From Echinarachnius parma (taxonomy: Eukaryota; Echinodermata; Echinoidea; Clypeasteroida; Echinarachniidae), in contig JBAMJV010010061.1 of NCBI GenBank assembly GCA_037951105.1, positions 56,708 to 120,707 on the forward strand: a stretch of DNA of 64,000 bases. Direction: 5' to 3'. The translations under genes and the position numbers were made by a program. The notes beneath the pieces are model-generated. The model searched no databases. It was not told where the DNA came from and saw nothing but the letters and a program-made list of their open reading frames with translations. Positions 7,134-60,496 of the stretch are shown here, in pieces. Every line of letters starts with the position of its first letter. Within the stretch, counting starts at the first letter, position 1.

Positions 7134-7675
7134 CTAATGATATCACTTTTCATTATTTAAAGTTATGTTGTTTTGCTTTCAAAATCGGTCATTCTGCGCC
7201 ATTACCAGCTAGAACAATTTGCCTGCAGTGGGTATTATAGTGTCAGTCACGTCAGTAGCTGCTAGCGATAGCGGCAGCTCCGCGGACGCTCCCCCCGGTT
7301 TACGGCGGTTGCTTCAACTACAACTTGCCCCTGCTGCACTGCACAATTAGTCCATTACAGTCCCACATACTTATTTCTATGTAAGTATATTTCACATATT
7401 TTTAACAAATAAGTCATGTTCATAGGCGATATAGGGTTCAAATGAGTGATTAACTTGTGGAATGTATAAGTTTCAATGCTTCAAAACAATATCTAGAAGT
7501 TTTCTTATCATAAAAGGGGACAAAACATAATAAATACCCTCGTACAAAAAACTTGATCAAGCGGCCGACAAAGAAATCCAAGATGGCAGCCTCCATGGAC
7601 CGACATGCTTATCGTAACTAAATTGGATATAACTCGTAGAAACAGAAATCACAATCAAAGCACAGTTAACTTTCA

Positions 7676-7780
<105 letters not shown>

Positions 7781-8029
7781 CTAACGTTTTCCACTTTTGA
7801 GCGATGAGCAAGACTCACTGATTACACGGTATTTCGACAAGAGATGGCGTTATTTTACAAAACATAAAACTTGACTACCCAAACACCAGCCTAAGAATCA
7901 ACAAAATGATTGGGAAACTGGTATAAGTTCGGTGTACTGCAACCACTCCATTAATTTTCTCCCAACAAAAATTACTTGATGAACATATTGAAAAAAATTA
8001 CTGACTAAACATCAGTAACACTGCCCTTT

Positions 8030-8508: not shown

Positions 8509-9765
8509 CACAGTGGAGTCGATCCGTTTTTGCGATTGGGAGGGGGGGGGGAATTTTCTAGACACCCGGTGAGAGAGCATAGAAACCCCATATTGGCATG
8601 CCAAAAATGTGAAGACTAAGGGGGGGGGGGGGGGGCAGAAAATGGTTTTCAACCAAATGACACCCCAGCTGCAGAGGCTATTGGATTTTATCCGTTTAGA
8701 ACTGTCAAGATGACTTTGTATATGAATAGAAAGTATTTATTACAAACAAAATATAATCTGCACACATTGAAAGCGTATATTATATTGGTGATTATATTGA
8801 TGGTTAAAAGCCCTGAAAGGGTTGAGTCAAGGGGCACCTACATGGGGGCCTAAACAGAGGTCGAGGGGGCAGAGGAAGCTTTCAGACATTTAGAACTGCT
8901 ATAATGTGGGATAAAATTGTATAAAATAGTGAATATATTCGTAGCTTATTTTAAAGGGAGGACATCTGAAAGAGTATAATAGAAGGGCTTTATAACAGCA
9001 GCCTAGTGGGCACATCAGGCCCCGAAAGCTTGTTGATATTAGCACTTATGAAATCAAAGATGTTTCATTATAAGGGACACAAATATCAATTTGAATCAAT
9101 AGAAGTTTAATTTATGAGCTTTGCCCAAATTTTGAAAATACGTGGATTTACCTTGTTGGGGGTCCAGGGGGGCGGAGCACCCGGAAGCTTTTAGATTTTT
9201 GCATTTTAGCACTCCCAAGCGGGGGTTTAAAAGGTATGTAAAATAGTGAAACTTGTTTGGGGTTTATATAGCGTGCATGGCAATGCAGTAGCGAGGAGGC
9301 TTGCATGGGAGTGTGTCCAGGTGCTCCTGTACTAGAATTGATGGGGTCTAGGGGATTGAGCCCTCGGAAACTTTTAGAATTCAGCAATTTAGAACTCTCA
9401 AGCCCTTACATATAACCCTTACATATAAGAACACAGCGTTCTTATATGTAAGGGTAAATATGTGTATTTTGTCAAGCGATTTTACAAGTATATAGTCGGC
9501 GTGCCATAAATATACTATGCCCGATAGTCTATGGGTGGGGAGCAGGAGCAGACTTTGATATGGCCCCAGTAGAGGGTTCGGGGGACGGAGCCTCTTGGGA
9601 TTAAGGATTTTAGCGATTTCTTACTCTTTGTTTTAACCAAATGACACATACATTAGACAAACGACATGCCTTTTCTCGACCAGAATTTATACATGACCAC
9701 TACAGCTATGATATGTTTGCCCCCCAAAAATTATTTTCATTGGGGGGGGGGGGGGGGGGCCATTG
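8509..9765 (+). mobile_element. Old, diverged copy of the CAGGGGCGTCGATCC hAT family
   Basis: Segments align in order with the intact element at 10898-12033: the GTCGATCCGTTTTT start, GAGAGAGC...CCCCATATTGGCATGCC, GGGGGTCCAGGGGGGCGGAGC, AAAATTGTATAAAATAGTGAA and the final CCCCCCAA...TTGGGGGG. Some internal blocks occur twice, so this copy is rearranged or duplicated. No coding potential. Confidence 0.55.
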
Positions 9766-10897: not shown

Positions 10898-12033
10898 CAG
10901 GGGCGTCGATCCGTTTTTTATATTGGGGGGGCGAAATTTGAAATTTTTCCAGAGTGACCACTGAGAGAGCTAAAAGCCCCACATTGGCATGCCCGAAAGT
11001 TTTATTATGCGCTCATTGAAAGTGTCTTGATGGCTCGAAGACCTGATTTTGGGGGGCACCCACATTTGGGGACAATAATTGGGGGTCCAGGGGGCGGAGC
11101 CCCCGGAAACTTTTAGATTACAGAAATTTGTAACTCCTATCATGGGTGTTAAAATTGTATAAAATAGTGAACCTATACTCGTAACGTATTTTTAAAGGGC
11201 ATAGCGAGGAAAAGATTGAGCCTTGCATGAGATGGATCCACGTGATCCTGTATACTATAGAGCCATCGATATATTCTAGGGCATTGGGCTCACATGAAAC
11301 TAAGCAAGGGCGTCAACAACTTCTCAAAACAGAAGGGGAGACATTGCGAGGAAGCGAAGCGACCGAGCGGGGGAGGGTGTGGGAGGGGGTGTCCCCCTCC
11401 CACAGTAGGGAGCTTTTGTATTTTTGGGCGTTAAATTGTGCGATTTGGGGCACACCTGAGACAGAAATTTCACGTAATATAAAGTATATAAGTATGGAAC
11501 CAAACATACATAATGACAAAGGGAGGGGGACAATCTCCTCCACTTTCAAATGTGGAGGGGACATGATAATTATTCCAATAATATTATGATTTGCGTTCAG
11601 CACATATGGACCGAATTGACTGAAATATATATTTCAAATTATTTTATTTTCTGTGACGATGGGCTATCTATAGATGAGGGTTTAATTAACTTCGTTTGAG
11701 GTGTGCGTTTGAGAAATTACACTGCCCAACACATTTCGAAATGTGAGTTCCCGGAACCAAAATGAAACTTGCAATATGAGAAACTGTATGCGCGCGAAGC
11801 GCGCGGCAAAACAGAGATTTACAGTCCTTTTCAAACTAGAAAACGGCTATTTTGAAGATTAATTATTGATAAATGTGTATTTCCCCTCTTTGGCATTATA
11901 TCACTTAATTTTGTTCTTCCTCATTTTCGGAATTATTGGGGGGGCGAAATGATATGTTCGCCCCCCCAATATTTGTATTGGGGGGGGGGGGGGGGCGACC
12001 GCCCCCCCTGCCCCCCCAGGATCGACGCCCCTG
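10898..12033. mobile_element. hAT-type element, CAGGGGCGTCGATCC family, copy A
   Basis: A 1,136-bp element with perfect terminal repeats CAGGGGCGTCGATCC and GGATCGACGCCCCTG. An exact 8-bp duplication CTTCAATA flanks it (10890-10897 and 12034-12041). Terminus and duplication length are diagnostic of hAT. The interior has G/C homopolymer tracts and ORFs (for example 11227-11589) that resemble no transposase, so it is non-autonomous. Copy B is at 59862-61030. Confidence 0.85.
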
Positions 12034-33816: not shown

Positions 33817-34439
33817 CTTTCTCTCGTCTTTTTAACGCGAAAATTAAAATTTTACAGACAGCTGGATCGCGAGCTTATACTGTACAGATGGGAAAGTGAA
33901 ATAACAATTTTACATGTACAAACAAATGGGTGTAAAGTAGTACTATACACACCCCAAATACGCCCACATTAAAGGATACGTGCACAGTGTAATAATGAAT
34001 TGTGCTAACAATAAATAATAGTGTTCATTTTGTTGTTGTTGTTGTTTTGTTTTGTTTTTGAGGGGGGGGGGGGCTGATCTAGATGTAATGGGAATTGGGT
34101 TATTTTTGTCAGATAAACCCCTTCAGGATGACGTTATGATAATGACAGTATGGATTAAAAAGGAGATTAATGTGTGGAATTGCAATCATACAATTATCAC
34201 AACTTGACTCCATGATAGTAGGCGTACGGACACCGTTTTTCAGAGCGGCGGCAAGGTTTTTTTGCCCGAATAATCTTCCATCACCTGACAAACAAAAACA
34301 TACACCTCTTCATCACATTTATGTCCAAAAGCAATATTTTTTTGATGGTCGAATTAAAACAAAACAAGGCATGGTTTTTCACGAATATGTTTTAGCCCGA
34401 AAATGACGTAATTACAATGAGGAGGAGCAAGGAGGAGCG

Positions 34440-41205: not shown

Positions 41206-41510
41206 GGTGGAGATGGTTGATGGAGCCAGATGCAGTATTAGTGGGCTTGGGACATCAGAGCCGAGACTTGTTCGGTCAGTGGAACATCGTCAGAACAGAG
41301 ACTGATTTAGTGGGAGAACTTTTGGAACAGAGACCTAAGTATTTGTGTCTACCCACCCCACCCAACTGTAAGCCAGTGATACAGAATAGACTTGAGTGTG
41401 TTTCCTTTACTCCCAGAGCCTTCAAGAGATTTGGAACAATCAGCGACTACGTCACACGAGTACTAAAGTATACAGACTTTAAAAATGGCCAGCCGACAAA
41501 GTTATTCTAG
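41206..41510 (+). CDS. Unidentified ORF overlapping the zinc-finger gene start
   Basis: An open frame with first ATG at 41220 follows a CCAACACAG acceptor-like sequence and runs about 96 codons to 41510, overlapping the start of the HTH ORF (41485) in another frame. The peptide looks coding (ordinary composition, GELLEQRPKYLCLPTPPNC, FTPRAFKRFG) and VLVGLGHQSRDL is faintly like an SGNH-hydrolase strand. I cannot assign it. It may be an upstream ORF in the zinc-finger transcript, the end of another gene, or a remnant. Confidence 0.4.
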
Positions 41511-41992
41511 GGAATTCAAACTAGATGTTGTCAATTTTTACCATAACTTTAGCCTTTGCAAAACAGCGAAAAACTTTGATCTCAACAAAAAAACCGTCCT
41601 TAGGTGGGTGAGGCAAGAGAAAGAGTTAATACTTAGTCGAAACACAAGCAGGAAGGTGAAAGGAGGCAGCAAAGTAATGTGGCCAGAACTTGAAGACAAG
41701 TTGGCAAAAGAAATCGAGGAGCTGCGACAGAAAGAGTCGAGAGTGAAGAAAGGTTGGGTGATGAGTAGGGCAAAGGAGCTTAAAGAAGAGATGGATCCCT
41801 CGCACCCATTGGCATTATCGAGAGGATGGTACGCCAGCTTCATGAGGAGGAACGATCCATCGAAGCCAGGAACGACGTCAACCAATCGATACCCTCCTGA
41901 AAACGAGGCAGAAAAGCTGCAAGACTTGCAAACGTTCACCATGAGGAATGCCTCACGAGGATCCAAAACCAGGCAACAGGACAGACCACTCG
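41485..41992 (+). CDS. Zinc-finger locus exon 1: transposase-type HTH domains
   Basis: The ATG in AAAATGGCC opens 169 codons ending at CTCG before GTAAAT. Residues 5-50 (SYSREFKLDVVNFY through KKTVLRWVRQE) match the Brinker/psq-type HTH. Residues 70-130, with WPELEDKLAKEIEELR and SRGWYASFMRR, match the CENP-B/Tc5-type HTH. Both occur together at the N-terminus of pogo/Tigger transposases; the DDE catalytic domain is absent. Without splicing the frame stops at 42016-42018. Domestication is inferred from the phase-1 donor leading into zinc-finger exons. Confidence 0.75.
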
Positions 41993-44900
41993 GTAAATTA
42001 AAAATGGGACAATACTAGCGAACGTGAACTAGGCTTCTGGCTTAGTAACATTGTTCCAAATCCTCAAAATCCAATTGGAATTCTAGCGGCTCCCTCATAC
42101 CTTGTTTTATTCGTATTAACAATAAAGCATGGGACATGTATCTGTTTTTCAAATTTCCATTTTATTCAAAATATACGATTGAAGTGTTTTGATATGAAAT
42201 TATCTATTGGACCTTTTCAGCCGTGCACAGAATAAGTGCAATGAGTAAGGCCTGTGGTTGCCATGACAATATAGTTAGCATAGACTGGGAAAAATCCCCA
42301 GAAAGTGTCATCCAAAACGAAAATTAAAACAAATAGAAATAATCATGTCTCCCGTCTTCACTTTTGACTTCTTTAAAGACGGGTTTGACTGTAGCTTTTA
42401 TTACTTTGCATAACTTTGATCTGATTTCAAACTGAATTAACGACATTTTACATGTGTGTACACTTTCGTTTCACAGTATGCACTCGAAAACGGTCTGGAT
42501 ATGATGTCACCAACGTGACGGTGAAGATGGAATTTGATGAGAACATAGTCAACGTGGAATCACAGGAGACATTGCAAGAGCCGTCTGGATATGATGTCAC
42601 CAAAGTGAAGAGGGAATTTGATGAGAGCGGAGTCCAGATGGAATTGCTGGAGACATCACAAGAGCAGCAGGGAGACTGGACGAGGGTGGAGATAAAAGTG
42701 GAACAGGATGATCATTGTGGAGGTGAGATCTTGTGCTGTCTTGCGTGGACTAGTCAAAGTAGTGATTTTGAAGACGAAATGGACACCGAAAAGTGTACCA
42801 GAAGTCTGGGATGCTGGTGGAACAGCTGGTCATGCTGGTGGTCATTCAAAGGTTACAAATCTAAGCCGTAATCAACTGAAATGCTGTGCTGAAATACACA
42901 CAGGGATCTCTACACAATGTAGAATAGAGATCAAGAGGATGACGTCATTATAACTAGGGTCACGTTTTCACCATTCTTGGTACAAGTATGTATCTTGAGG
43001 TGACATATAACTGGTTAGATTTTGGGGGCCAAATGTCAAAGGTTGCAGGGCACAATATCTATGCTAAATTAGATTGTAATTGCAAAATCTGAAGAACTGA
43101 ATGTCAGATTTCAATCAAACTTGGTACCTGACAAAGAAAAAAACAGCAACTGGCGCACACTATGAAGCTATGACATAAAAGGATGTATTTATAAACAGGA
43201 TTTTAAACTAATTGACTCTTGAGATATTTCCTTGCTTGATTCTTATATCTTCCCTTTTCAGATAATCGTGATGAGCACGCGGTTAGGGAGAGCAATATCT
43301 GGCTGAATAGGAAGGACACCTGTGCCACCAATAGAGAGATCATCAACAACTATTTAAAAACCTCTTCTATACTTTTTTGAATGGTGTAAGCATTTTATTT
43401 TATTTTTCAACGGCTTTTTCATAATTATTGAATTATTGTGGGGCCCCACAATAATTTGAAAATCGATATTTCCTTGAATTTATACTACTGTAATATCTTC
43501 TTTTTGTCCCTTTTCCCCCTTCAGACGAGGGAGATCAACCCGTTGGTGGAGAAAGCATTTCCTGTCTGAGTAGTGCGCCCTCATTGGCCACCAGAGGGAT
43601 CGAGAGTGAGGTTCCCGAACTGAAGACGGCTCGGATCGTGTTAAAGAAACTTGACATCGGACGAGTGCCTGCTAGATGCGAGGATTGCCACAAGGCACTG
43701 CGAGGTAGCCGCTTCCAGTTGTCCCTGGATGGTGCAGAGCAGAACAATGTCAGGAAGTGTGAGAGATGCAGGGAAGATGACGTAACTGAGCTTCAGGAAG
43801 CAGACGTCACTGAGCTTCAGGAAGCAGACGTCACTGAGCTTCAGGAAGCAGACGTCACTGAGCTTCAGGAAGCAGACGTCACTGAGCTTCAGGAAGCAGA
43901 CGTCACTGAGCTTCAGGAAGCAGACGTCACTGAGCTTCAGGAAGCAGACGTCCTGAGCAATGAGGCTTGTCATCCAACTCGTCCTGGAACAAGTAGGACA
44001 TACCGAGTCAAGTTGGAGGATGCAGGTGAGGAAGGGCATCTAGAGAAGCAAATGTGGGAACAGTCTCATGTCAACCCAGACCAATGTGATGTTTCCACTA
44101 AGGAAATAAACGGACACGTAAGAATGCAAATGGATAAGAGCTCTTTCAGTCAGAATGTCTGTTCAAGGACTATGGAACAAAGTCGTCTGGAAAAACACCC
44201 ATTAGCTTGTCAAATAAGTGAAAGACCTTTTATTTGCAATATATGATGACATAAACGGTACCCTGGGGTACCAGACGAAAATCCGCCATTTTGTTTAATT
44301 ATTTATTTAATTTTTAGGGCTGTACTGTGGGTATAGCGTGCATACAATCGCGCGCTGCACTGCATGCACAATGCAATAGCTGCGGTACGGTTGGACGCAA
44401 GATGGCGCTACACAACGCGGGATACCGGGGTACAACGGTACCCTGGGGTACTGCGTGTGTCATCATATGTGGAAAGGGGTTCAATTGTTCAAGTAAAGTT
44501 GCCATTCACATGAAGACACATACTGGGGAAAAAAATTACTCGTGCAAAATATGTAAAATGGCATTTTCTTGTAAATCTAATCTGAAAAAACACAAGAGTA
44601 CACATACAGATAAACAACTTCACAGTATGAGTGCACATACTGATACAAGACATTTCAAGTGCACAATATGTGCAAAGGCTTTCTCTTGGGAATGCAACAT
44701 ACAACTTTTTTTTCAGGGGCACTTTTGGGCATTTCGGGGGCAAATTCGCCTGCTGCCCCCTTTTTTTTTCTTTTCGCGATATAGTTTCACTATCCGTACT
44801 GATGAATGTAGTTGTTTTTGTATATCCAGAGGGAACCTCCCAAGGCGTTTCAACTGACCTCGGAGGCAGTGTCTCCGTGGACCAAGACCTGGATCACAAC

Positions 44901-47900
44901 CTGCATGGACCAAGACGTAAGCTGCAGAACATGTCAGTCCCTACATCTCAAGCATGCAGAGACATGCAATGTCAAACAAGCATTGAAATATTTTATTCAT
45001 TGGTACTAATTAATTCCATTGCTCTTTTACATCCAGAGGGAACCTCCCAAGGCGTTTCCAATGACCTCGAAGGCAGTGTCTCCGTGGACCAAGGCGTTTC
45101 CAATGACCTCGAAGGCAGTGTCTCCGTGGACCAAGGCGTTTCCAATGACCTCGAAGGCAGTGTCTCCGTGGACCAAGGCGTTTCCAATGACCTCAAAGGC
45201 AGTGTCTCCATGGACCAGGACCAACGCAGTACTAGTCCTGGATCGCATAGTAACATCCCGGATGTGCACAGAGACCAGTGCAGTAGTCCTGGATCGCAAA
45301 GTAACATCACGGATGCGCACAGAGACCAGTGCAGTAGTCCTGTATCGCAAAGTGACATCCCAGATGCGCACAGAGACCAGTGCAGTAGTCCTGGATCGCA
45401 AAGTGACATCCCAGATGGGCACAGAGACCAGTGGCAGTGGGCTGCCTGGATCAAACAAGAGATGGATGCTGATGATCAGACTGAAGGTAATACAATACTA
45501 TTGGTCAGGGCATCTTAGGCCCGCATCTAAGTTCGCGCAGCATTCAAGTTTGCGCAGTAAATTTCGCACATGCATACAGCTCCACACCATTACGTATGCG
45601 TGCATACAATACGTTATAAATGCGTGAACATCAAAGCTTTTATTTTGTGCGTGCTTGAAAATGACAGTGAAGACAGCCACAATGGCCTTTTGAATGCACG
45701 TACAAATGAATTGGAAAACTGATGCGCAAACTTCGATGCCCTTTTTTTTTTTCAATAAAAATGGAAGGGTTTCAAAAACAGGCCAAAATAAATAGGTGAA
45801 ATTGAGGGATCTTAAAACCAAAACATGTTTATTATACTACAGAATATTCTGGATAATCTCGTATTAGTATCATTATACAAATCAGTATATTTCTTGTCAA
45901 AATGATATATTAAATGTTATGTGCGCGAACTTCGATGCCCCCGTCATAGATGACGTAAGCCAATGAATTGTCAATCACATGTCAATCACACTGCCGATTC
46001 TGGACCCTAAATGTGGGCGGGGCGTAAACTGGCTGCTAAGTGAGATTTGGCATCAGAAAATTAGTCTAAAATTACTACTTTGTTTATGTTCATGGAGTTT
46101 TTTTCGGCAGACCTATTTTACAAGTCATCAACTATGGAATAAGTTCCAAAGTACATTGTATTCTTTAGTTCCTTTAAATAAAATATTTCCATATAACTGG
46201 TCTGATTTGGTTGCCCAATCCGGTAACTAATTAAATATTTTTGTTGGAACTGCAGGAGTAGAATGTTATTCCTTACATATAAATGCAGATCGTATCTGGA
46301 AGTAAGTGAGCAGGTATATTTTCTATTTAGGCAAGCAAAATTTAACATTTATAACTTAGAGGCGCCTTAGACTAGTGTCGTACATGTATGTATACCAACG
46401 ACACTACAGGGTGTCTATCTTTTTGTTATTTTTTTTAATTATTTTAGCTTTTTTTTTTACGGGGCACCGGTTTCGAAAAAACAAAACAAAACCGGGATCG
46501 ATGGTGACGGTCGGGAACCGGTGTGACCGACCGAACTGACTCAGCCTTAGTTGTAACAGCTCTTTTTCAATGATAAGAGGCTTTTACTTCTAAGTTGTAT
46601 GTAATTTTATTATACCTTTCGTGTATGGTGGAGCTATAACTATTTAGTTTGTAATGTTACGGTGCAGGTTTTGATTACTAATATACAGTTTGACCAAAAC
46701 TGTACTCTCTGAACCGAAACTCAGCTATCCCTTTAAAGCTGCTTTTAATTGTTTTGCACTAAAAAAAAGCTTCATTATTCAATGCCCTGTCTTTTAATCT
46801 TATCTTTTGCTACAGATGTTCACTGGCAGTGGGACGGATCGGGAGAGTCTTCGGAAAGTGGTGATGCACCAAACAGTAGTAAGGACACTCAGAATATTAC
46901 TGAATTGAAAATGGAGCAAAAATTGCCCCTCACGGTAGATCTGCAAGATAACTTATGCAGTGGCAGTGGAAACCAAGGGAATGGCGCTTGTAGTAGTACT
47001 GGGATGGAACTAAGCTTTTCTTTGGAAAGAGGCGATGCACCAAACAGAAGTAAGGACAACCAGAATATTACTGAATTGAAAATGGCGCAAAAATCGCCCC
47101 TCACAGTAGATCTGCAACATAACTTAAGCAGTGGAAACCAAGGGAATGTCGCTTGTAGTAATACAGGGATGAAACTAAACATCCAGGATGCAATTGAGTG
47201 TGAATCACCAAAGGCACACATGGTGACGCATGAAAGACCTTTTGTGCGCGAGCTGTGCCCGAAGGTGTTCTATTGGAAGCGTGATCTCAAGGCACACATG
47301 GTGACGCATGAAAGACCTTTTGTGCGCGAGCTGTGCCCAGAGGTGTTCCATCGGAAACGTGATCTCAAGAAACATTTGGTGACGCATATCGATAGAAGAC
47401 CTTTTGCATGCGACTTGTGTCCAAAGACGTTCCAACAGAAGGTTGGTCTAAGGCGGCACATGAGTAACTGTCATAATGGGCCCAAAAATCATGCATGTGA
47501 GTTGTGCACCGAGAAATTCAGGTTCAAGAAAGAGCTCAGCGAGCACATAAAACTTGTGCATACGGTAGCGAGACCTTACACCTGCGACTTGTGCACAAAG
47601 ACTTTCTCAAAGGAAAACTATCTTGAGTTGCACATGAATACGCACACTGGCGAAGTATGTGACATATGCTCACAGGCATTCTCGTCAGAGGGTGAGCTAA
47701 AGGTGCATATTATGTCGGCACACTCCGAAGACAGACCTTATGCTTGTGACTTGTGCCCCAAGACATTTAAGAGGAAGAGCAGCTTCGATACGCACAGGAG
47801 GTGGACACACCCTGAATCTCTTGAAGCACAAAGAGATGGTGCTAAGGGTTCGTGGCAAGGTGATGATGGTGATACGCCAATCAGCACCCAAAATGTCCAG

Positions 47901-50048
47901 AATATTGGGGATACACAAGCAGTAAACACATGGCTACAAAGAGCGGATGTAGGTAATATAGATGATGCACACCGTCCTAGTTTTGCGAGTGAAGTTTTTG
48001 GCAGCGAAGGACCTAAACAGGAAGAACATGACGATGCAAGTTTTGAGGCTACAACTACAAGTCAAATGGAAGGAAGTCGGGAACATAATATGAAAAGAGA
48101 ATACGAGGATAGCGAGGGCAAGGTAGATACTCGTCGCAGACATCACGTTTGTGGCATGTGTTCGAAAGCGTTCAAGATAAAGAGTAAGCTGGAGGCACAC
48201 GAGAGAATGCATCACGGTGAAAAGCCCTTTGCGTGCGAGATGAGTTCGGAGGCGTTCTACGAGAAGGGACAATTCAACACGCACATGAGGCAGCACAACA
48301 AATATGCTTGCATATTTTGTTCGGAAGCGTTCACAGATAAGGATGAACTATGTAAGCACGTGATGTCGCACCCTGGTTCAAGACATCACGCGTGCGAGAT
48401 GTGCCCGGAGTCGTTCCATCGGAAGCGCGAGCTTGAGGAACATATGGTGACACACATTGGCGGAAGACCTTTTCCATGCGAGTTGTGTCCAAGGACGTTC
48501 CAAAGGAAGCAGCGTCTCACACAGCACATGACTACTCATAATGGGCCCCAAAATCATGCATGTGAGTTGTGCACCGAGAAATACAGGTTCAAGAAAGAGC
48601 TTAGTGAACACATCAAACTTGTGCATACGGTCGCGAGACCTTACGCCTGCGACTTGTGCCCGAAGACTTTCTCAAAGGAAAACTATCTTGAGTTGCACAT
48701 GAATACGCACACTGGCGATGTATGTGACATATGCTCACAGGCATTCTCGTCAGAGGGTGAGCTGAAGGTGCATATTATGAGTCTGCACTCTGAAGGCAGA
48801 CCTTTTGCTTGTGACTTGTGCCCCAAGACATTTAAGAGGAAGAGCAGCTTCGATACGCACAGGAGGTGGACACACCCTGAATCTCTTGAAGCACAAAGAG
48901 ATGGTGCTAAGGGTTCGTGGCAAGGTGATGATGGTGATACGCCAATCAGCACCCAAAATGTCCAGAATATTGGGGATACGCAAGCAGTAAACACATGGCT
49001 ACAAAGAGCGGATGTAGGTAATATAGATGATGCAAACCATCCTAGTTTTGCAAGTGAAGTTTTTGGCAGCGAAGACCCTAAACAGAAAGAACATGACGAT
49101 GCAAGTTTTGAGGCTACAACTACAAGTCAAAAGGAAGGAACTCGGGAACATAATATGAAAATAGAATACGAGGATAGTAAGGGCAAGGTAGATACTCGTC
49201 GCAGACATCACGTTTGTGGCATGTGTTCGAAAGCGTTCAAGATAAAGAGTAAGCTGGAGGCACACGAGAGAACGCAACACGGTAAAAAGCCCTTTGCGTG
49301 CGAGATGTGTTCAGAGGTGTTCTACGAGAAGGGACAATTCAACACGCACATGAGGCAGCACAACAGATATGCCTGCATGTTTTGTTCGGAAACATTCACG
49401 GATAAGGATGAACTACGTAAGCACGTGATTTCGCACCCTGGTTCAAGACATCACGTGTGCGAGCTGTGCCCAGAGGCATTCCATCAGAAACGTGATCTCA
49501 AGGCACACATGGTGATGCATGAAAGACCTTTTGTGTGTGAGCTGTGCCCGGAGGCGTTCCATCGGAAATGTGATCTCAAGAAACATATGGTGACGCATAT
49601 CGGTGGAAGACCTTTTGCATGCGACTTGTGTCCAAAAACGTTCCAACGGAAGGATGGTCTAAGGCGGCACATGAGTAACTGTCATAATGGGCCCAAAAAT
49701 CATGCATGTAAGTTGTGCACCGAGAAGTTCAGGATCATAAAAGAGCTCAACGAGCACATCAAACTTGTGCACACGGTCGCGAGACCTTACACCTGTGACT
49801 TGTGCCCGAAGACTTTCTCGAAGGAAAATTATCTTGAGTTGCACATGAATACGCACACTGGCGAAATATGTGACATATGCTCACAGGCATTCTCGTCAGA
49901 GGGTGAGCTAAATGTGCATATTATGACGGCACACTCCGAAGACAGACCTTATGCTTGTGACTTGTGCTCCATGGAATTTACATTTAAGAGGAAGAGCAGC
50001 CTGGATATGCACAGGAGGTGGACACACCCTGAATCTCTGGCAATATAA
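41485..50048 (+). CDS. HTH-linker-C2H2 zinc-finger gene, longest model (6 exons)
   Basis: Six phase-1 exons (41485-41992, 42477-42722, 43525-44025, 44830-44916, 45037-45486, 46816-50048) join without a stop to give 1,674 aa. The N-terminus holds a Brinker/psq-like helix-turn-helix and a CENP-B-type HTH of the kind found in pogo transposases. The middle is acidic and repetitive, and the last exon encodes 26 C2H2 fingers in three arrays. The protein should be a nuclear DNA-binding regulator. Every exon border has a consensus acceptor and donor, but whether all exons enter one mRNA is unknown. Skipping any phase-1 exon keeps the frame, and three more terminal exons lie downstream. Confidence 0.7.
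42477..42722 (+). CDS. Zinc-finger locus exon 2: acidic linker
   Basis: 82 codons follow a TTTCACAG acceptor and end before GTGAGATC. Two related blocks, SGYDVTNVTVKMEFDENIVN and SGYDVTKVKREFDE, show an internal duplication. VKMEFDE, VKREFDE and IKVEQD resemble SUMO-acceptor sites (hydrophobic-K-x-E), common in zinc-finger repressors; function here is inferred. Confidence 0.7.
43262..43380 (+). CDS. Alternative short terminal exon (duplicate of exon 3 start)
   Basis: A TTTTCAG acceptor in phase 1 opens DNRDEHAVRESNIWLNR and a TGA ends it after 39 codons. It aligns with the start of exon 3 (DEGDQPVGGESISCLSS...ATRGIESE; compare ATNREII). It may be a duplicated, decaying exon or an ending that gives an isoform without fingers. 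Confidence 0.4.
43525..44025 (+). CDS. Zinc-finger locus exon 3: linker with DVTELQEA repeats
   Basis: 167 codons lie between CCCTTCAG and GTGAGG. The N-terminal part has two CxxC pairs (CEDCHKAL, CERCRED) that could bind zinc. Then DVTELQEA repeats seven times in 24-bp units (about 43779-43950), followed by YRVKLEDA. The repeat number is likely to vary between individuals. Reading through the donor leads into the broken finger ORF at 44026-44720. Confidence 0.65.
44026..44720 (+). pseudogene. Broken zinc-finger end interrupted by a MITE
   Basis: The exon 3 frame stays open past its donor to HPLACQISERPFICNI and then meets a stop inside the MITE at 44245-44465. Just after the MITE the finger resumes in the frame the original codons require (CGKGFNCSSKVAIHMKTH, then a TGEKNY linker, CKICKMAFSCKSNLKKH, CTICAKAFSW). 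TGEK linkers distinguish these fingers from the arrays downstream. The last finger breaks off near 44700 at a T-rich, GGGGGCAAATTCGCCTGC sequence. It looks like an old terminal finger exon inactivated by transposition. Confidence 0.7.
44245..44465. mobile_element. 221-bp MITE inside a zinc-finger ORF
   Basis: Ends TGATGACATAAACGG and GCGTGTGTCATCA are flanked by TA (44243-44244 and 44466-44467), as for Tc1/mariner MITEs. Subterminal GGTACCCTGGGGTACC palindromes occur at both sides. Without it and one TA, the surrounding codons join in frame as ICNI-CGKGF. Confidence 0.8.
44830..44916 (+). CDS. Zinc-finger locus exon 4: short linker
   Basis: 29 codons between TATCCAG and GTAAGC encode EGTSQGVSTDLGGSVSVDQ, then DLDHNLHGP. 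It is a paralogue of the start of the next exon and keeps phase 1 on both sides. Confidence 0.6.
45037..45486 (+). CDS. Zinc-finger locus exon 5: repetitive linker
   Basis: 150 codons between CATCCAG and GTAATA. GVSNDLEGSVSVDQ is repeated four times in 42-bp units, then HRDQCSSPGSQSNITDA-like 17-residue units occur four times, and the exon ends WIKQEMDADDQTE. It is Ser/Asp-rich and probably disordered; WIKQEMD resembles a SUMO site. Confidence 0.65.
45518..45945. repeat. Foldback repeat with CATCKAAGTTCGCGCA ends
   Basis: GCATCTAAGTTCGCGCA at the left pairs with TGCGCGAACTTCGATGC at the right, with an extra GCGCAAACTTCGATGCCC inside. No genes. Confidence 0.5.
46816..50048 (+). CDS. Zinc-finger terminal exon A (26 fingers)
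   Basis: A TTGCTACAG acceptor opens in phase 1 (DVHWQWDGSGES) and TAA ends the exon, 1,077 codons later. A duplicated acidic lead-in (GDAPN-SKD-QNITELKM twice) precedes three arrays: seven fingers (first two lack the first Cys, VRELC), nine (one with CEMSS instead of CxxC) and ten. Joining linkers hold GNIDDAHRPSFASEVFGSE. Fingers are CxxC-x12-Hx3-5H, mostly without TGEK linkers; the last has two extra residues between Cys and His pairs. Arrays two and three reflect a 1,065-bp in-frame duplication. Probably a nuclear sequence-specific DNA-binding protein. Confidence 0.85.
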
Positions 50049-51060
50049 TTGTTAGTCCACCTGATTGCGTTGCTGAATTAATGTTTTTCTTAAAATGGAT
50101 TTGAGTAAATTTAGACCGCGGGCCGAACAGTGAAAATCGCCTTATTTCTTGACTTTTGTGACCCACCTCTGAGAACTACAGTGGAAAAATCACTGAACAT
50201 GAACTCAAATGTCGTCAAGCTCCAAAAAAGATCAATTTTTCAAAAAGTGGAAACAATTGGATTTCCCCCCCCCCCCCAACATTCTCTGAACAATAATCCA
50301 ATCCTAGTGAATCTCTAATTAGAACGTTACGCTGTCCCTTAAGCTAGAGCCAATCAGATTGCTTGTTTTAATCTATGCTATTAAGAAAATCATTTTTGAA
50401 AAGTGGAAGCAGGTAGTGTAACAAAGTAGGGCTCCAAAAATAGAGAAATGTATGCTCTTTCTCCTTGTACACTATCACAGGCTAGTTATCTTATTGCTGA
50501 AGTGTAGGACTACCAAGTACCAAACTACAAATATGCGGGCTATAGGCTAATCCTTGGTTGGTGAAATTGCAGAGCAATATTGAAATGAAAAGTGATGTTT
50601 GCAGTAACTTTGTACACAGCTGAAACTATAGTGTGTGTTTTTAAAACATGACACAAACAAAAATCAGAATTTCAATTGGAATGATGAGTATAATTAACTA
50701 ACTCTCCAAAACCATGATTTTAATTTAAAAGTGATTTATAGAGTAAAACTTTTTCTATACAAAATATTATGTCATAAAAAATAGAGATTCTAGCTTTAAA
50801 GGGGTAGTTCAGTTTTGGAACAGAGGGTGCTTAACGTCCATTTAACTTGAAATTTTCACACAGCACACAGTGGACATATCAGATAGCAACAATGTACATT
50901 TTAATTTGTATCAACCACTCATCACTTTTTGCACATGACAACAAAGTTACTACTTATAGATCCCTTTAATAATATGTGCGCCCAAAGTAGTAAACACTCT
51001 GCTACATGTAGGTATAAATATTCCCCAAATTCTTTTCTCTCTATCTTTGCATTTCTGCAG

Positions 51061-52232
51061 TGAGCACTTGCTGGCCAAGAGATGGTGCTAAGGGTTCGTG
51101 TCAAGGTGATGATGGTGATACGCCAATCAGCACCCAAAATGTCCAGAATATTGGGGATACGCAAGCAGTAAATACATGGCTACAAAGAGCGGATGTAGGT
51201 AATATAGATGATGCACACCGTCCTAGTTTTGCGAGTGAAGTTTTTGGCAGCGAAGGACCTAAACAGGATGAGGAAGAACATGACAATGCAAGTTTTGAGG
51301 CTACAACTACAAGTCAAAAGGAAGGAAGTCGGGAACATAACATGAAAAGAGAATACGAGGATAGTAAGGGCAAGGTAGATACTCGTCGCAGACATCACGT
51401 TTGTGGCATGTGTTCGAAAGCGTTCAAGATAAGTAGTAACCTGGAGGCACACGAGAGAACGCATCACCGTGAAAAGCCTTTTGCATGTGAGATGTGTTCA
51501 GAGGCGTTCTACGAAAAGGGACAATTCAACACGCACATGAGGCAGCACAATAGATATGCCTGCATGTTTTGTTCGGAAACGTTCACAGATCAGGATGAAC
51601 TACGTAAACATGTGATGTCGCACCCTGGTTCAAGACATCACGCGTGCGAGTTGTGCCCGGAGGCATTCCACCGGAAGCGTGATCTCGAGGAACATATGGT
51701 GACGCACATCGATGGGAGACCTTTTCCATGCGACTTGTGTCCAAGAACGTTCCAACGGAAGCGGCATCTCAAGCAGCACATGACTACTCATAATGGGCCC
51801 AAAAATGCATGCGACTTGTGTCCAAAGACGTTCCAACAGAAGGTTGGTCTAAGGCGGCACATGAGTAACTGTCATAATGGGCCCAAAAATCATGCCTGTG
51901 AGTTGTGCCCCGAGAAATTCAGGTTCAAGAAAGAGCTCAGCGAGCACATAAAACTTGTGCATACGGTAGCGAGACCTTACACCTGCGACTTGTGCCCGAA
52001 GACTTTCTCGAAGGAAAATTATCTCGAGTTGCACATGAATACGCACACTGGCGAAGTATGTGACATATGCTCACAGGCATTCTCGTCAGAGGGGGAGCTG
52101 AAGGTGCATATTATGAACCTGCATTCCGAAGGCAGACCTTTTGCTTGTGACTTGTGCACCAAGACATACAAGAGGAAACTCGGACTCGATATGCACAGGA
52201 GGTGCTCACACCCCAAATCTCTTGGAATATAA
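51061..52232 (+). CDS. Zinc-finger terminal exon B (10 fingers)
   Basis: A TTTCTGCAG acceptor in phase 1 opens VSTCWPRDGAKG; 390 codons later the frame ends SLGI and TAA. The lead-in matches the internal linkers of exon A from DGAKG onward. Ten intact C2H2 fingers follow (CGMCSKAF...HERTHH to CDLCTKTYKRKLGLDMH). There is no in-frame ATG before the HNMKREYED block, so the exon needs an upstream exon or a late start. TATAAATA stands at 51013-51020, so a private promoter is conceivable. Confidence 0.8.
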
Positions 52233-52307
52233 TTGTTAGTCCATCTGAGTGTGTTGCTGGATTTTTTGGGGGGAGACGGATTAGCTATCTTATCACGGTT
52301 AAAGTAA

Positions 52308-52725
52308 CAAAGACGTTCCAACGTAAGATTGGTCTAAGGCAGCACATGAGTAACTGTCATAATGGGCTGAAAAATCATGCATGTAAGTTGTGCACCGAGA
52401 AGTTCAGGATCATAAAAGAGCTCAACGAGCACATCAAACTTGTGCACACGGTCACAAGACCATACACCTGCGACTTGTGCCCGAAGACTTTCTCGAAGGA
52501 AGATTATCTTGAGTTGCACATGAATATACACACTGGCGAAATATGTGACATATGCTCACAGGCATTTTCGTCAGAGGGTGACCTAAAGGTGCATATTATG
52601 ACGGCACACTCTGTGAAGACAGACCTTATGCTTGTGACTTGTGCTCCATGGAATTTACATTTAAGAGGAAGAGCAGCCTGGATATGCACAGGAGGTGGAC
52701 ACACCCTGAATCTCTGGCAATATAA
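52308..52725 (+). pseudogene. Orphan finger fragment behind exon B
   Basis: It starts within a finger (TFQRKIGLRQHMSNCH) without Cys residues or an acceptor, continues through three complete fingers and copies the end of exon A. A 2-bp insertion at AHSVKTD (near 52612) shifts the frame, so the normal ESLAI ending is lost. It is a duplicated and now broken 3' piece. Confidence 0.7.
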
Positions 52726-53484
52726 TTGTTAGTCCACCTGATTGCGTTGCTGGATATTTTTTGATTAAAATGGATTTGAGTAACTTTAGACCGCGAGCCG
52801 AACAGTGAAAGTCGCCTTATTTATTTTCATTCGTGGCCCACCTCTGTGATCTACCCAGACTTTGAGCATGGAGGTAGTGAAAATATCACTGAACACAAAC
52901 TCAAATGTCGTCAAGCTAAAAAAAAGATCCACTGTTAAAAAAGTGGGGGAAATTGTTTTTTTTAAGATAGAGCCAATCAGATTGCTTGCTTTAATCTACG
53001 CAATTCATATTGCTCTGCAATTTCACCCAATCAAGGATTATAGCCCTCATATTTGTATTTTGGTACTTGGTAGTCCTAAACTTCAGCTAGAAGATAACTA
53101 GCCTGTGATAGTGTACAAGGAGAAAGAGCATACATTTCTCTATTTTTGGAGCCCTATTTTGTTACACTACCTGCTTCCACTTTTTCAAAAATTATTTTCT
53201 TAAAATGAAAATGCAAAGTGATGTTTGCAGTAACTTTGTACAAAGTTATTGTGTTTTTTTAAAAAGATGACACAACTTGAAATTTTCACAAAGCACACAG
53301 TGGACATATAAGATAACAACAATGTACATTGTATCAACCACTCATCACTTTTTGCACATGACAACAAAGTTACTACTTATAGATCCCTTTAATAATATGT
53401 GCGCCCAAAGTAGTAAACACTCTGCTACATGTAGGTATAAATATTCCCCAAATTCTTTTCTCTCTTATCTTTGCATTTCTGCAG

Positions 53485-54650
53485 TGAGCACTTGCTGGCC
53501 AAGAGATGGTGCTAAGTGTCCGTGGCAAGGTGATGAAGGTGACACGCCAATCAACACCCAAAATGTCCAGAATATTGGGGATACGCAAGCAGTAAACACA
53601 TGGCTACAAAGAGCGGATGTAGGTAATATAGATGATGCAAACCATCCTAGTTTTGCGAGTGAAGTTTTTGGCAGTGAAGACCCTAAACAGAAAGATCACG
53701 ACGATGCAAGTTTTAAGGCTACAACTACAAGTCAAAAGGAAGGAAGTCAGGAACATAATATGAAAAGAGAATACGAGGATAGCGAGGACAAGGTAGATAC
53801 TCGTCAAATACATCACGTTTGTGGCATGTGTTCGAAAGCGTTCAAGATAAGTAGTAACCTGGAGGCACACGAGAGAACGCATCACCGTGAAAAGCCTTTT
53901 GCATGTGAGATGTGTTCAGAGGCGTTCTACGAAAAGGGACAATTCAACACGCACATGAGGCAGCACAATAGATATGCCTGCATGTTTTGTTCGGAAATGT
54001 TCACAGATAAGGATGAACTACGTAAACATGTGATGTCGCACCCTGGTTCAAGACATCACGCGTGCGAGTTGTGCCCGGAGGCATTCCACCGGAAGCGTGA
54101 TCTCGAGGAACATATGGTGACGCACATCGATGGGAGACCTTTTCCATGCGACTTGTGTCCAAGAACGTTCCAACGGAAGCGGCATCTCAAGCAGCACATG
54201 ACTACTCATAATGGGCCCAAAAATGCATGCGACTTGTGTCCAAAGACGTTCCAACAGAAGGTTGGTCTAAGGCGGCACATGAGTAACTGTCATAATGGGC
54301 CCAAAAATCATGCCTGTGAGTTGTGCCCCGAGAAATTCAGGTTCAAGAAAGAGCTCAACGAGCACATCAAACTTGTGCATACGGTAGCGAGACCTTACAC
54401 CTGCGACTTGTGCCCGAAGACTTTCTCGAAGGAAAATTATCTCGAGTTGCACATGAATACGCACACTGGCGAAGTATGTGACATATGCTCACAGGCATTC
54501 TCGTCAGAGGGGGAGCTGAAGGTGCATATTATGAACCTGCATTCCGAAGGCAGACCTTTTGCTTGTGACTTGTGCACCAAGACATACAAGAGGAAACTCG
54601 GACTCGATATGCACAGGAGGTGCTCACACCCCAAATCTCTTGGAATATAA
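53485..54650 (+). CDS. Zinc-finger terminal exon C (10 fingers)
   Basis: Almost identical to exon B in exon, upstream intron and downstream DNA; phase-1 acceptor TTTCTGCAG and 388 codons ending SLGI. All ten fingers are intact and nearly all contact residues equal those of exon B; one difference is CSEMFTDKDEL against CSETFTDQDEL in finger 3. TATAAATA lies 48 bp upstream of the exon, as in B and D. Confidence 0.8.
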
Positions 54651-54725
54651 TTGTTAGTCCATCTGAGTGTGTTGCTGGATTTTTTGGGGGGAGACGGATT
54701 AGCTATCTTATCACGGTTAAAGTAA

Positions 54726-55141
54726 CAAAGACGTTCCAACGTAAGATTGGTCTAAGGCAGCACATGAGTAACTGTCATAATGGGCTGAAAAATCATGCAT
54801 GTAAGTTATGCACCGAGAAGTTCAGGATCATAAAAGAGCTCAACGAGCACATAAAACTTGTGCACACGGTCGCAAGACCTTACACCTGCGACTTGTGCCC
54901 GAAGACTTTCTCGAAGGAAGATTATCTTGAGTTGCACATGAATATACACACTGGCGAAATATGTGACATATGCTCACAGGCATTCTCGTCAGAGGGTGAC
55001 CTAAAGGTGCATATTATGACGGCACACTCCGAAGACAGACCTTATGCTTGTGACTTGTGCTCCATGGAATTTACATTTAAGAGGAAGAGCAGCCTGGATA
55101 TGCACAGGAGGTGGACACACCCTGAATCTCTGGCAATATAA
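54726..55141 (+). pseudogene. Orphan finger fragment behind exon C
   Basis: The same duplicated tail as behind exon B, but with an open frame through CDLCSMEFTFKRKSSLDMH to the ESLAI end. It still lacks its own acceptor and the Cys pair of its first finger, so it is unlikely to be translated unless reached by unusual splicing. Confidence 0.6.
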
Positions 55142-55898
55142 TTGTTAGTCCACCTGATTGCGTTGCTGGATTTTTTTGGATTAAAATGGATTTGAGTAAC
55201 TTTAGACCGCGAGCCGAACAGTGAAAGTCGCCTTATTTATTTTCATTCGTGGCCCACCTCTGTGATCTACCCAGACTTTGAGCATGGAGGTAGTGGAAAT
55301 ATCACTGAACACAAACTCAAATGTCGTCAAGCTAAAAAGAAGATCCACTGTTAAAAAAGTGGGGAAAATTGTTTTTTTTAAGATAGAGCCAATCAGATTG
55401 CTTGTTTTAATCTATGCAATTCATATTGCTCTGCAATTTCACCAATCAAGGATTATAGCCCTCATATTTGTAATTTGGTACTTGGTAGTCCTAAACTACA
55501 GCTAGAAGATAACTAGCCTGTGATAGTGTACAAGGAGAAAGAGCATACATTTCTCTATTTTTGGAGCCCTATTTTGTTACACTACCTGCTTCCATTTTTC
55601 AAAAATTATTTTCTTAAAATGAAAATGCAAAGTGATGTTTGCAGTAACTTTGTACAAAGTTATTGTGTTTTTTTTAAAAGATGACACAACTTGAAATTTT
55701 CACACAGCACACAGTGGACATATAAGATAACAACAATGTACATTGTATCAACCACTCATCACTTTTTGCACATGACAACAAAGTTACTACCTGTAGATCC
55801 CTTTAATAATATGTGCGCCCAAAGTAGTAAACACTCTGCTACATGTAGGTATAAATATTCCCCAAATTCTTTTCTCTCTTATCTTTGCATTTCTGCAG

Positions 55899-56974
55899 TG
55901 AGCACTTGCTGGCCAAGAGATGCTGCTAAGGGTTCGTGGCAAGGTGATGAAGGTGACATGCCAATCAACACCCAAAATGTCCAGAATATTGGGGATACGC
56001 AAGCAGTAAACACATGGCTACAAAGAGCGGATGTAGGTAATATAGATGATGCAAACCATCCTAGTTTTGCGAGTGAAGTTTTTGGCAGTGAAGACCCTAA
56101 ACAAAAAGATCACGACGATGCAAGTTTTAAGGCTACAACTACAAGTCAAAAGGAAGGAAGTCAGGAACAAAATATGAAAAGAGAATACGAGGATAGCGAG
56201 GACAAGGTAGATACTCGTCAAATACATCACGTTTGTGGCATGTGTTCGAAAGCGTTCAAGATAAGTAGTAACCTGGAGGCACACGAGAGAACGCATCACC
56301 GTGAAAAGCCTTTTGCGTGTAAGATTTGCTCAGAGTCTTTCGACGAGAGGGGACAATTCAACACGCACATGAGGCAGCACAACAAATATGCTTGCACGTT
56401 TTGTTCGGAAGCGTTCACAGATAAGGATGAACTGCGTAAGCACGTGATGTCGCACCCTGGTTCAAGACATCACGCGTGCGAGTTGTGCCCGGAGGCGTTC
56501 CATCGGAAGCGCGAGCTTGAGGAACATATGGTGACGCACATCGGTGGAAGACCTTTCGTATGCGATTTGTGTCCAAGAATGTTCCAACGGAAGAAGCATC
56601 TCAAGCAGCACATGATTACTCATAATGGGCCCAAAAATTATGCATGTGAGTTGTGCACCGAGAAATTCAGGTTCAAGAGAGAGCTCAGCGAGCACATCAA
56701 ACTTGTGCATACGGTCGCGAGACCTTTCACCTGCGACTTGTGCCCGAAGACTTTCTCAAAGGAAGATTATCTCGAGTTGCACATGAATACGCACACTGCC
56801 GAAGTATGTGACATATGCTCACAGGCATTCTCGTCAGAGGGTGAGCTGAAGGTGCATATTATAAATCTGCACTCTGAAGGCAGTTCTTTTGCTTGTGAAT
56901 TGTGCCCCGAGACATACAAGAGGAAATATGGACTCGATGTCCACAGAAGGTGCTCACACCCTGAATTGTTTTGA
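55899..56974 (+). CDS. Zinc-finger terminal exon D (9 fingers)
   Basis: The same TTTCTGCAG acceptor and VSTCWPRDAAKG start give 358 codons ending HPELF and TGA. Nine intact fingers: the sixth finger of B and C (FQQKVGLRRH) is missing, and finger 2 (CKICSESFDERGQFNTH) and finger 5 (CPRMFQRKKHLKQH) differ. It is the most diverged of the tandem copies and its 3' flank is new sequence with a TTAA-MITE fragment (56998-57055). Confidence 0.8.
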
Positions 56975-57056
56975 AATATAATTTTGATTAATTTCCTAAA
57001 GGGATCTAGTAACTTTGTTGTTAAAAAATGTATGAAATTTGATAAAACGAATATTT

Positions 57057-57339
57057 GTGCCTGAAAGAAGACATGAGTATCCACACAGACGAAAGACCCT
57101 TTGCTTGTAGATTGCATCCAAAGGCATTTAAGCAGAGTGGCAAGCTAGTTGAACATATGAAAATTCATAGTAAAGAAAGGCCTTTTGCTTGTGAAATGTG
57201 TCCAAAAGCATTTGAGCAGCGTGCAAAGCTTGTTGCTCGCATGACAACTCATAGCAATGATAGGCCTCATGTTTGTGACATTTGTTTTAAGGCTTTCAAG
57301 ATGAAGGGAGATCTGGCAACACATGAGGACACATGCTGA
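57057..57339 (+). pseudogene. Isolated C2H2 fragment with about four fingers
   Basis: The open frame begins in a truncated finger (CLKEDMSIHTDERPFAC), has one finger with His in place of the second Cys (CRLHPKAF), then CEMCPKAFEQRAKLVARMTTH and CDICFKAFKMKGDLATH, and ends TC and TGA. TDERPF and SKERPF linkers are closer to classical TGEKP types than those of exons A-D. No acceptor is visible because a MITE fragment abuts its start. It may be the old 3' end of the locus. Confidence 0.6.
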
Positions 57340-57889: not shown

Positions 57890-59860
57890 GGGTGGATTGA
57901 TGGATGGATGGATGGATAGGGATGGATTGATGGATGGATGGATAGGTGGATGGATGGATGGATGGACATGTGGATGGATGGATAGATTGATGGATGGATG
58001 GATGGATGGATGGGTGGATGGATGGATAGATTGATGGATGGATGGATAGATAGATGGATGGATTGATGGATGGATGTATTGATGGATGGATTGATGGATG
58101 GGTTGATGGATGGATGAATGGATGGATTGATGGATTGAGGGATGGATTGAAGGATGGATGGATCGATGGATGAATTGATGGATGGATGGATGGATTGATG
58201 GATGGATGGTTTGATGGATGGATTGATGTGGATGGATGGATGAATGGATGGATTGATGGATTGATGGATGGATGTATTGATGGATGGGTTGATGGATGGA
58301 TGAATGGATGGATGGTTTGGTTGATGGATGGATTGATGTATGGATGGGTTGATTTATGGATGGATGGATTGATGTATGGATGGATTGATGGATTGAAGGA
58401 TGTATGGATTGATGGATGAATTGATGGATGGATGGATGGATTGAAAGATGGGTGGATGCTAGATTGATGGATGGATGGATGGATGAATGGATGGATTGAT
58501 GTATGGATGGGTTGATGGATGGATGGATGGATAGATGGATGGATGGATTGATGGATGGGTGGATGGATAGGTGGATGGATGGATGGATAGATGGATGGAT
58601 TGATGGATGGATGTATTGATGGATGGATTGATTGATGGATGGATGGATGGGTTGATGGATGGATGAATGGATTGATGGATGGATGGATTGATGTGTGTAT
58701 GGGTTGATGGATGGATGGATTGATGTATTGATGGATGGAGGGAAGGATGGATGGATTGAAGGGATGGATGGATTGAAGGATGGGGTGGATGCTGGATTGA
58801 TGGATGGATGGATGGTTTGATGGATGGATTGATGTGGATTTGATTTGCGTTCAGCGCATATGGACCAAATTGACTGAAAGATATATTTCAAATTATTTTA
58901 TTTTCTGTGACGTGTGCTATCTATAGATGAGGGTTTAATAAACTTCGTTTGAGGTGTGCGTTTGAGAAATTACACTGCCCAACACATTTCGAAAGGGGGA
59001 TTTCGTTGCAACCAAAATGAAACTTGGATGGATGTATTGATGGATGGATTGATTGATGGATGGATGGATGGGTTGATGGATGGATGAATGGATTGATGGA
59101 TGGATGGATGATGTGTGTATGGTTGATGGATGATGGATTGATGTATTGATGTGTATGGAGGAAGGATGATGATTGATGGATGGATGGATTGAAGGATGGG
59201 TGGATGCTGGATTGATGGATGGATGGATGGTTTGATGGATGGATTGATGTGGATGGATGGATGAATGGATGTTGGATTGATGCTTGGATGGATGAATGAG
59301 GAATAGCATGGTGGGGTGGTGTCATGATAAGAGGGGCAAATACATTTTTTTTTTTTTGGAGGGGGATGGCATTGATGGATGGGTTGATGTATGGATGGAT
59401 GGATGGATGGATGGTTTGATTGATGATGGATTGATGGGTGGATGGATTGATGGATGGTTGATGAATGGATTGATGGGTGGATGGATTGATGATGGGTTGA
59501 TGAATGGATTGATGGATGGTTGATGAATGGATTGATGGATGGATGGATGGTTTGATTGATGGATGGATTGATGGATGTATTGATTGATGGATGGATGGAT
59601 TGAAGGATGGATGGATTGATGGATGGATGGATGCTGGATTGATGGATGGATTGATGTATGGATGGATGGATGGATGGTTTGATTGATGGATGGATTGATG
59701 GATGAATGGATTGATGGATGGATTGATGGATGAATTGATGGATGGATTGAAGGATGGATGAATTGATGGATGGATGGTTTATGGATGGATTTATGTGGAT
59801 GGATGGATGAATGGATGGACTGATGGATGGATGGATGAATGAATGAGAATAGCATGGTGG
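57890..59860. repeat. TGGA/TTGA tetranucleotide satellite
   Basis: Nearly 2 kb of GATGGATGGATTGATGG variants give long minus-strand frames of IHPSIHQS type that are not genes. Local higher-order copies of about 0.4 kb are visible (58610-58830 resembles 59030-59290). The array is interrupted by hAT-derived DNA at 58838-59024 and a non-repeat piece at 59290-59365. Confidence 0.9.
58838..59024 (+). mobile_element. hAT fragment inside the satellite
   Basis: GATTTGCGTTCAGCGCATAT through CCAAAATGAAACTTG equals an internal segment of the hAT elements at 10898-12033 and 59862-61030 (about 11590-11772 of the former). Both element ends are missing and satellite resumes on both sides. Confidence 0.75.
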
Positions 59861-59861
59861 G

Positions 59862-60496
59862 CAGGGGCGTCGATCCGATTTTGAGATTGGGGGGGGGGCG
59901 AAATTTGAAAAAAAAAATCCAGAGCGACCACTGAGAGAGCTAAAAGCCCCACATTGGCATGCCCGGAAGTTTTATTATGCGCTCATTGAAAGTGTCTTGA
60001 TGGCTCGAAGACCTGACTTTGGGGGGGCACCCACATTTGGGGACAATAATGGGGGTCCAGGGGGCGGAGCCCCCGGAAGCTTTTAGATTTAGAGACATTT
60101 GCAACTCCTATCATGGGTTGTTAAAATTGTATAAAATAGTGAACCTAACGCGTAACGTATTTTTAAAAGGCATAGCGAGGAAAAGAGTGAGCTTGCATGA
60201 GATGGATCCACGTGATCATGTATACTGTAGAGCCATCGATATAGTCTAGGGCATTGGGGCTCCCATGAAACCTAAGCAAGGGCGTCAACAACTTTCTAAA
60301 AGTGGAGGGGGAGACATTGGGGGAGGAAGCGAAGCGACCAAGCGGTGGAGGGTGTGGGGAGGGAGGTGTCCCCCTCCCACAGTAGGAAGCTTTGTATTTT
60401 GGGCGTGAAATTGTGCGATTTGGTGCACACCTGAGACAGAAATTTCACGTAATATAAAGTATATAAGTATAGAACCAAACAATACATAATGACAAA

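Follow-up and report, generated by a model that had tools for sequence, protein, structure and literature searches.

A putative single gene with a captured transposase head and alternative zinc-finger terminal exons in Echinarachnius parma

The 64,000-nucleotide stretch of the Echinarachnius parma genome analysed here (the window; C10040:56708-120707 of a 1.2-Gb genome) contains an array of exons, all on the + strand from 41485, in which one exon encoding a transposase-type helix-turn-helix (HTH) domain stands upstream of several long terminal exons encoding C2H2 zinc fingers. Judged from the arrangement and conservation of these exons, the locus is probably a single gene, with a captured transposase domain as its head and alternative terminal finger exons as its tails, following a logic like that of lola. 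A pre-mRNA would be made from one promoter upstream of 41485, the donor of the last linker exon (45486) would be spliced to one finger exon per transcript, and the predicted products would carry the same head with different C2H2 arrays. One N-terminus with many ends had been proposed in an earlier note on this DNA; the layout recurs in a second cluster of the same genome (with linker and ends also in a third) and its acceptors and phase are conserved, while two further ends counted there, at 43262 and 44026, had to be excluded.

Layout of the locus and its sister clusters

Exon 1 has a coding part of 508 nt (41485-41992), whose phase-1 end is marked by the donor CTCG/GTAAAT. It is followed by linker exon E2 (42477-42722, 246 nt, donor GGAG/GTGAGA), which carries the psi-K-x-E motifs VKME, VKRE and IKVE, and by the last linker exon, E6 (45037-45486, donor GAAG/GTAATA), which contains GVSNDLEGSVSVDQ repeats and ends in IKQEMDADDQTE-G. 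Both linkers run from phase 1 to phase 1, so that the common phase-1 end noted earlier for the upstream exons was seen in all three. A possible small linker exon lies between them (44830-44916, phase 1 to 1); it is poorly conserved, the C5789 copies of this segment having early stops or no donor.

Four terminal finger exons follow, each entered in phase 1 behind a CTACAG or CTGCAG acceptor and each closed by its own stop, as had been described before: A (46816-50048, 1076 aa, 22 fingers), B (51061-52232, 389 aa, 10 fingers), C (53485-54650, 387 aa, 10 fingers) and D (55899-56974, 357 aa, 9 fingers). Joined in silico to the head, they gave proteins of 1507, 820, 818 and 788 aa, none of the four with an internal stop.

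Two sister clusters, C5789 and C2697, were located with two queries, part of the A exon at the DNA level and exon 1 at the protein level. The C5789 array lies on the minus strand, and its positions are given in reverse-complement coordinates (C5789rc). Its first unit holds an HTH exon (the intact head, 7437-7947), E2, E6, one A end and one B end. Its second unit retains exon 1 remnants, an E2 whose frame is not open behind the acceptor and an E6 that is open, along with three A ends and a single B end. When the C5789 head was joined in silico to its six downstream ends, all six frames were open. C2697 has an E2 without open frame and an E6, together with a single A end and four B-type ends, of which one is broken. 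As predicted from these exons, the whole head/tail plan is repeated in C5789, and linker and ends only in C2697.

On C2697 no HTH exon came up in the protein search; the stretch before E2 there contains, as read from its sequence, an inverted-repeat element. C2696:43832 was considered as the head of this cluster and was ruled out, as it runs on into a transposase-type frame. Close to the beginning of its E6 counterpart, C2697 carries an in-frame ATG that could be a new start; the window and C5789 copies have a Thr codon at this place.

Linker exons were sought by blastn, which copies too diverged for this method would escape. E2 is kept at C5789rc 9108-9263, with donor and open frame, and E6 has counterparts at C5789rc 11079-11240, C5789rc 33943-34101 and C2697 17072-17239, all with the donor GAAG/GTAAT. 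The E6 donor at 45486 is proposed as the putative common donor for all tails. Psi-K-x-E motifs are concentrated in these linkers: the linker part of the window has four in 261 aa (shuffle mean 0.08; 0/5000 shuffles reach four) and that of C5789 three in 106 aa (shuffle mean 0.08; 0/5000 reach three). They resemble SUMO-attachment sites, from which we infer a possible role in SUMO attachment; such motifs would point to a repressor or a factor acting on chromatin.

Origin of the head exon

The earlier identification of the head as a transposase-type HTH was borne out by Pfam, in which exon 1 matched BrkDBD (30.5 bits; cut-off 23.4) and HTH_Tnp_Tc5 (24.1 bits; cut-off 22.2), and by related frames in the same genome that reach a DDE_1 domain, one of them on C76 with 64.5 bits. 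Several other genomic copies run in frame across the donor site (RPLGKW..NMDQTP). Past the donor, a stop follows after 8 codons in the window and after 2 in C5789 (split codon counted), and in neither is there a continuous frame with a DDE domain, as an intact pogo/Tc5-type transposon would have. By homology, the predicted head is the DNA-binding region of a DDE_1-type transposase (Tc5/pogo-like HTH), with a donor-like site that cuts before the catalytic part. Because the donor that ends the head lies within the former transposase frame, the layout is that of a host-transposase fusion.

The exon could instead be a mere decaying transposon copy beside an unrelated finger gene, as the transposase frames of its relatives outside the clusters might suggest. 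This is extremely unlikely. The window and C5789 are collinear through exon 1 and its donor, a portion of intron 1 (83% across 218 aligned positions) and E2, and both frames end soon after the donor. The two exon 1 proteins are 81% identical, and their substitution rates (dN 0.110, dS 0.294, dN/dS 0.37; Fisher p = 0.0004) also speak against decay: between these two clusters the captured transposase domain is under selection.

Other searches with exon 1 added little, with only weak matches in a PDB sequence search (Brinker, E = 0.12) and a mean pLDDT of 52.6 in a single-sequence structure model, which was left unused. A 97-codon frame (41220-41510) overlaps the beginning of exon 1 in a different reading frame and is alignable in part to C5789 (41187-41447, 67%, gapped).

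Acceptors and reading phase of the terminal exons

A- and B-type ends were gathered by similarity to the starts of A and B, giving 15 in the three clusters. In all 15 an AG acceptor occupies the homologous position, and in 14 the phase-1 frame is open with 8-32 fingers, the exception being C2697:39912 (59 aa). Exon A shares its acceptor and open phase-1 frame with five A-type exons of C5789 and C2697. For the B-type comparisons of flanks, gaps, substitution rates and finger codons, C2697:24497 and C2697:39912 were excluded.

Across clusters, the 50 nt directly upstream of the acceptors are well conserved in both types (A: 45/50, 47/50 and 47/50; B: 39/50, 43/50, 43/49 and 38/50), and the preceding 50 nt are much less alike (15/50 to 27/43). 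Among recent duplicates (B-C, C-D and two C5789 A ends), similarity extends further upstream. In six pairs the frame ahead of the fingers is maintained without stops, and all 15 gaps between acceptor and first finger are multiples of three; this adds little, since open exons were compared, in which the net difference is forced to a multiple of three, and the pairs share history.

The phase match itself was dropped as proof. As B, C and D arose as tandem copies, their agreement counts as one observation and not three, and an unrelated finger exon on C118 also enters in phase 1; being common to a second finger-exon family, phase 1 is weak evidence by itself.

A further argument comes from B-type exons. 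Five of the nine have no in-frame ATG before the acceptor. Among them, the first Met lies at residue 94 in window B, whose first finger begins at 114, and at residue 86 in C5789rc:49452; the conserved starts of these two exons are thus translatable only from an upstream phase-1 coding exon, for which the head and linkers are the candidates found. The other three have a Met at residue 18 or 19.

Constraint on the zinc fingers

Finger codons were compared in nine chosen pairs with overlapping members, taking positions -1, 2, 3 and 6 as the DNA contacts of C2H2 fingers. At non-contact codons, pN was lower than pS in all nine (ratios 0.27-0.55, each p < 0.05), for example in B versus D (pN 0.039, pS 0.147; p = 0.0006) and in B versus C5789rc:20922 (pN 0.161, pS 0.338; p = 0.0002). 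The finger frameworks are under purifying selection in 9/9 pairs.

These values bear on the reading in which only the head with A works and B, C and D are decaying duplicates without product. It would account for the finger blocks stranded behind the stops of B and C (52307-52732, homologous to the last block of A with its frame disturbed near the end; 54725-55140, resembling the same block, in an open frame unjoined to exon C), for the broken C2697:39912 and for the young and repetitive state of the array. B, C and D are fully open, and the constraint in B-D and in B-C5789rc:20922 is not that of decaying sequence, which makes this reading very unlikely.

The nine pairs include two of A ends from the second C5789 unit, where the local copies of exon 1 and E2 are broken; the constraint on these ends fits use by the intact head upstream. 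A wider view would take the finger ends as a shared library: arrays with a broken or missing head (the second C5789 unit, C2697) would stay open and selected as heads arrive by long-range or trans-splicing, and one captured transposase domain would serve several evolving arrays, possibly against mobile DNA. Such a library is rather improbable.

Contact positions, whose changes were counted in nine pairs, varied more often than other finger positions in five of the seven pairs tested (B-C, with 0/40 changes, and D-C5789rc:20922 were outside the test). At these positions pN/pS was 1.06 and 1.59 in the two A pairs of the second C5789 unit and 0.35-0.79 in the other seven, a range that is no demonstration of positive selection.

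Growth of the terminal array

The growth by tandem duplication postulated earlier is real, with the addition that exon C is a recombinant. In 100-nt steps, the identity of B and C is 96-100% from 51461 through 53460, and that of C and D is likewise 96-100% from 53085 through 53884, beyond which they diverge. Exon C therefore resembles D in its 5' part and B in its 3' part; it is a D/B chimera, and the tail array has recombined. One unequal crossover within the exon would yield C, with gene conversion as the alternative.

Behind D, an orphan finger remnant (57057-57339) resembles the last fingers of the first A exon of C5789 (85.6% over 264 nt), and no acceptor is visible directly before it in the printed sequence. 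Further on, 57900-60000 is a long minisatellite-like stretch with a very strong GC skew of 0.84, whose minus strand encodes HPSI-type repeats.

Translation starts and the case for separate genes

Several observations weigh against a single gene. All six A-type copies have an in-frame ATG about 12 codons upstream of the acceptor, which for exon A lies at 46782-46784, so that the argument from a missing upstream start fails for A and a separate start is possible there. In-frame ATGs further upstream also occur in four of the nine B-type exons (C, D, C5789rc:20922 and C2697:43495), and 13 of the 14 finger-bearing ends have an internal Met before the first finger (the exception is C5789rc:20922); finger-only products from these internal Mets are possible. 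The finger ends of C2697 are open though no HTH exon was found beside them. The segment before the fingers of B is under weak constraint (dN/dS 0.57-1.6), and the absence of stops in pre-finger segments is weak evidence alone (P 0.07-0.28 per pair). Neither AATAAA nor ATTAAA occurs within 800 nt after the stop of A. The contact excess fell short of 0.05 in B-D (p = 0.17) and B-C2697:43495 (p = 0.19). Finally, the predicted contact residues of B and C are identical in 10/10 fingers; C therefore brings no new predicted specificity, and the window holds three finger sets, not four.

The ATGs, the internal Mets and the open ends of C2697 are what an arrangement of tandem separate genes would lead one to expect, in which every finger exon is served by a promoter of its own and either follows a short or non-coding first exon or starts at an internal Met, with at most A belonging with the HTH exon. 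For a start inside the exon, the conserved acceptor and its 50-nt flank would be needless; five of the nine B-type exons have no upstream in-frame ATG, yet the frame between acceptor and fingers is open in 14 of the 15 ends. Between A and B, blastn against the sister clusters gave no clear additional conserved exon; what aligned there were repeats, the flanks of acceptors and, at 50465-50800, a single 67% match to sequence lying behind a B end of C5789. In the A-type stretch from ATG to acceptor, all four variable sites would alter the amino acid, as read from the alignment, so that a pyrimidine tract fits better than a coding start. Taken together, separate genes seem unlikely, and one gene with shared head and alternative tails is preferred.

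Upstream pieces outside the array

Two pieces on the + strand between E2 and E6 do not belong to the array. The first (43262-43380), put forward earlier as a short alternative end, turned out to be the decayed start of a four-Cys finger exon, a copy of the start of the exon at 43525, running into a repeat in its 3' part; 36 of the 40 matches listed (the best 40 of 201 candidates) cover this repeat part only. The second (43525-44720) is a decayed four-Cys and finger terminal exon. Its portion from 44026 had been taken as a broken older finger end, and broken it is, by a repeat of about 230 bp near 44241-44470; it belongs, however, to a different finger-exon family spread through the genome. Against C5789 and C2697, neither piece gave a match at E 1e-4 except in the repeat part of 43262-43380.

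The homologue of the second piece on C118 is open over 638 aa with 13 fingers, behind an acceptor in the same phase. It reads straight across the position corresponding to 44025, so the exon end formerly placed there is probably not one. The element of about 230 bp has at least 40 other copies of 94-99% identity among the best 40 of 2784 first-look candidates, and was probably active recently.

The start of the second piece (43525-43780) encodes a domain of about 90 aa with four cysteines in two CxxC pairs, which gave 154 scored matches genome-wide (256 candidates, 150 scored; the domain itself and second pieces included). Many of them belong to frames 140-190 aa in length, some others to long frames. 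In Pfam the domain matched no family above cut-off, and it may be an undescribed head module of ZAD or KRAB kind.

Comparison with known systems

In the Drosophila genes lola and mod(mdg4), one N-terminal part is joined to many C-terminal ends, most with zinc fingers. For Lola, PMC5127561 describes at least 20 isoforms with a common N-terminal region including a BTB domain and with varying C-termini, for which different DNA-binding specificities are suggested. At the level of genomic layout, the present locus agrees with both in having one N-terminal part and several in-phase terminal finger exons. It differs in its head, a predicted transposase HTH and not BTB: the Pfam scan of exon 1, E2 and E6, three of the four upstream exons of the model, found HTH families in exon 1 and no BTB domain, so that the locus would be lola-like in its working and not a member of the BTB genes. 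The tails have 8-32 fingers versus one or two in the Lola isoforms described in that source (PMC5127561), some of them are recent tandem duplicates, the host is an echinoderm, and the joining of head to tails is predicted. The mitochondrial contig of this genome agrees with an echinoderm host: its COX1 reads best with AAA as Asn and ATA as Ile, as in the echinoderm code, and one strand carries in succession COX1, a putative ND4L-like frame and a putative COX2, the gene order of sea urchins and sea cucumbers.

If the single-gene reading is true, the insect-type design of one head and many tails has an independent origin in an echinoderm, where a domesticated transposase domain serves as the head and the tails are long finger arrays that change. 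Transposase capture together with tandem exon duplication would then generate DNA-binding specificities in the manner of a factory, and the order of the steps could be worked out from the three clusters of this one genome. The combination of head and tails is not firmly claimed as previously unpublished, the literature considered being open-access only.

Host-transposase fusion genes, KRABINER and others (Cosby et al. 2021, as cited in PMC12062965), offer a second comparison. As in those described there, a transposase-homologous DNA-binding domain is found in a putative host regulatory gene and the catalytic part is lost. Unlike them, the partner here would be an array of alternative finger ends with the captured domain as shared head, a join that is predicted from the genomic arrangement.

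Clusters of KRAB-ZNF or ZAD type grow by tandem duplication and keep a conserved finger framework with faster contact residues, usually with an own effector exon in each gene. Tandem duplication and a conserved framework are found here too, and contact residues change more in most comparisons. The locus and its sister clusters differ from such gene families in their linker exons, of which four of E6 type, with the conserved donor, were found for 15 ends.

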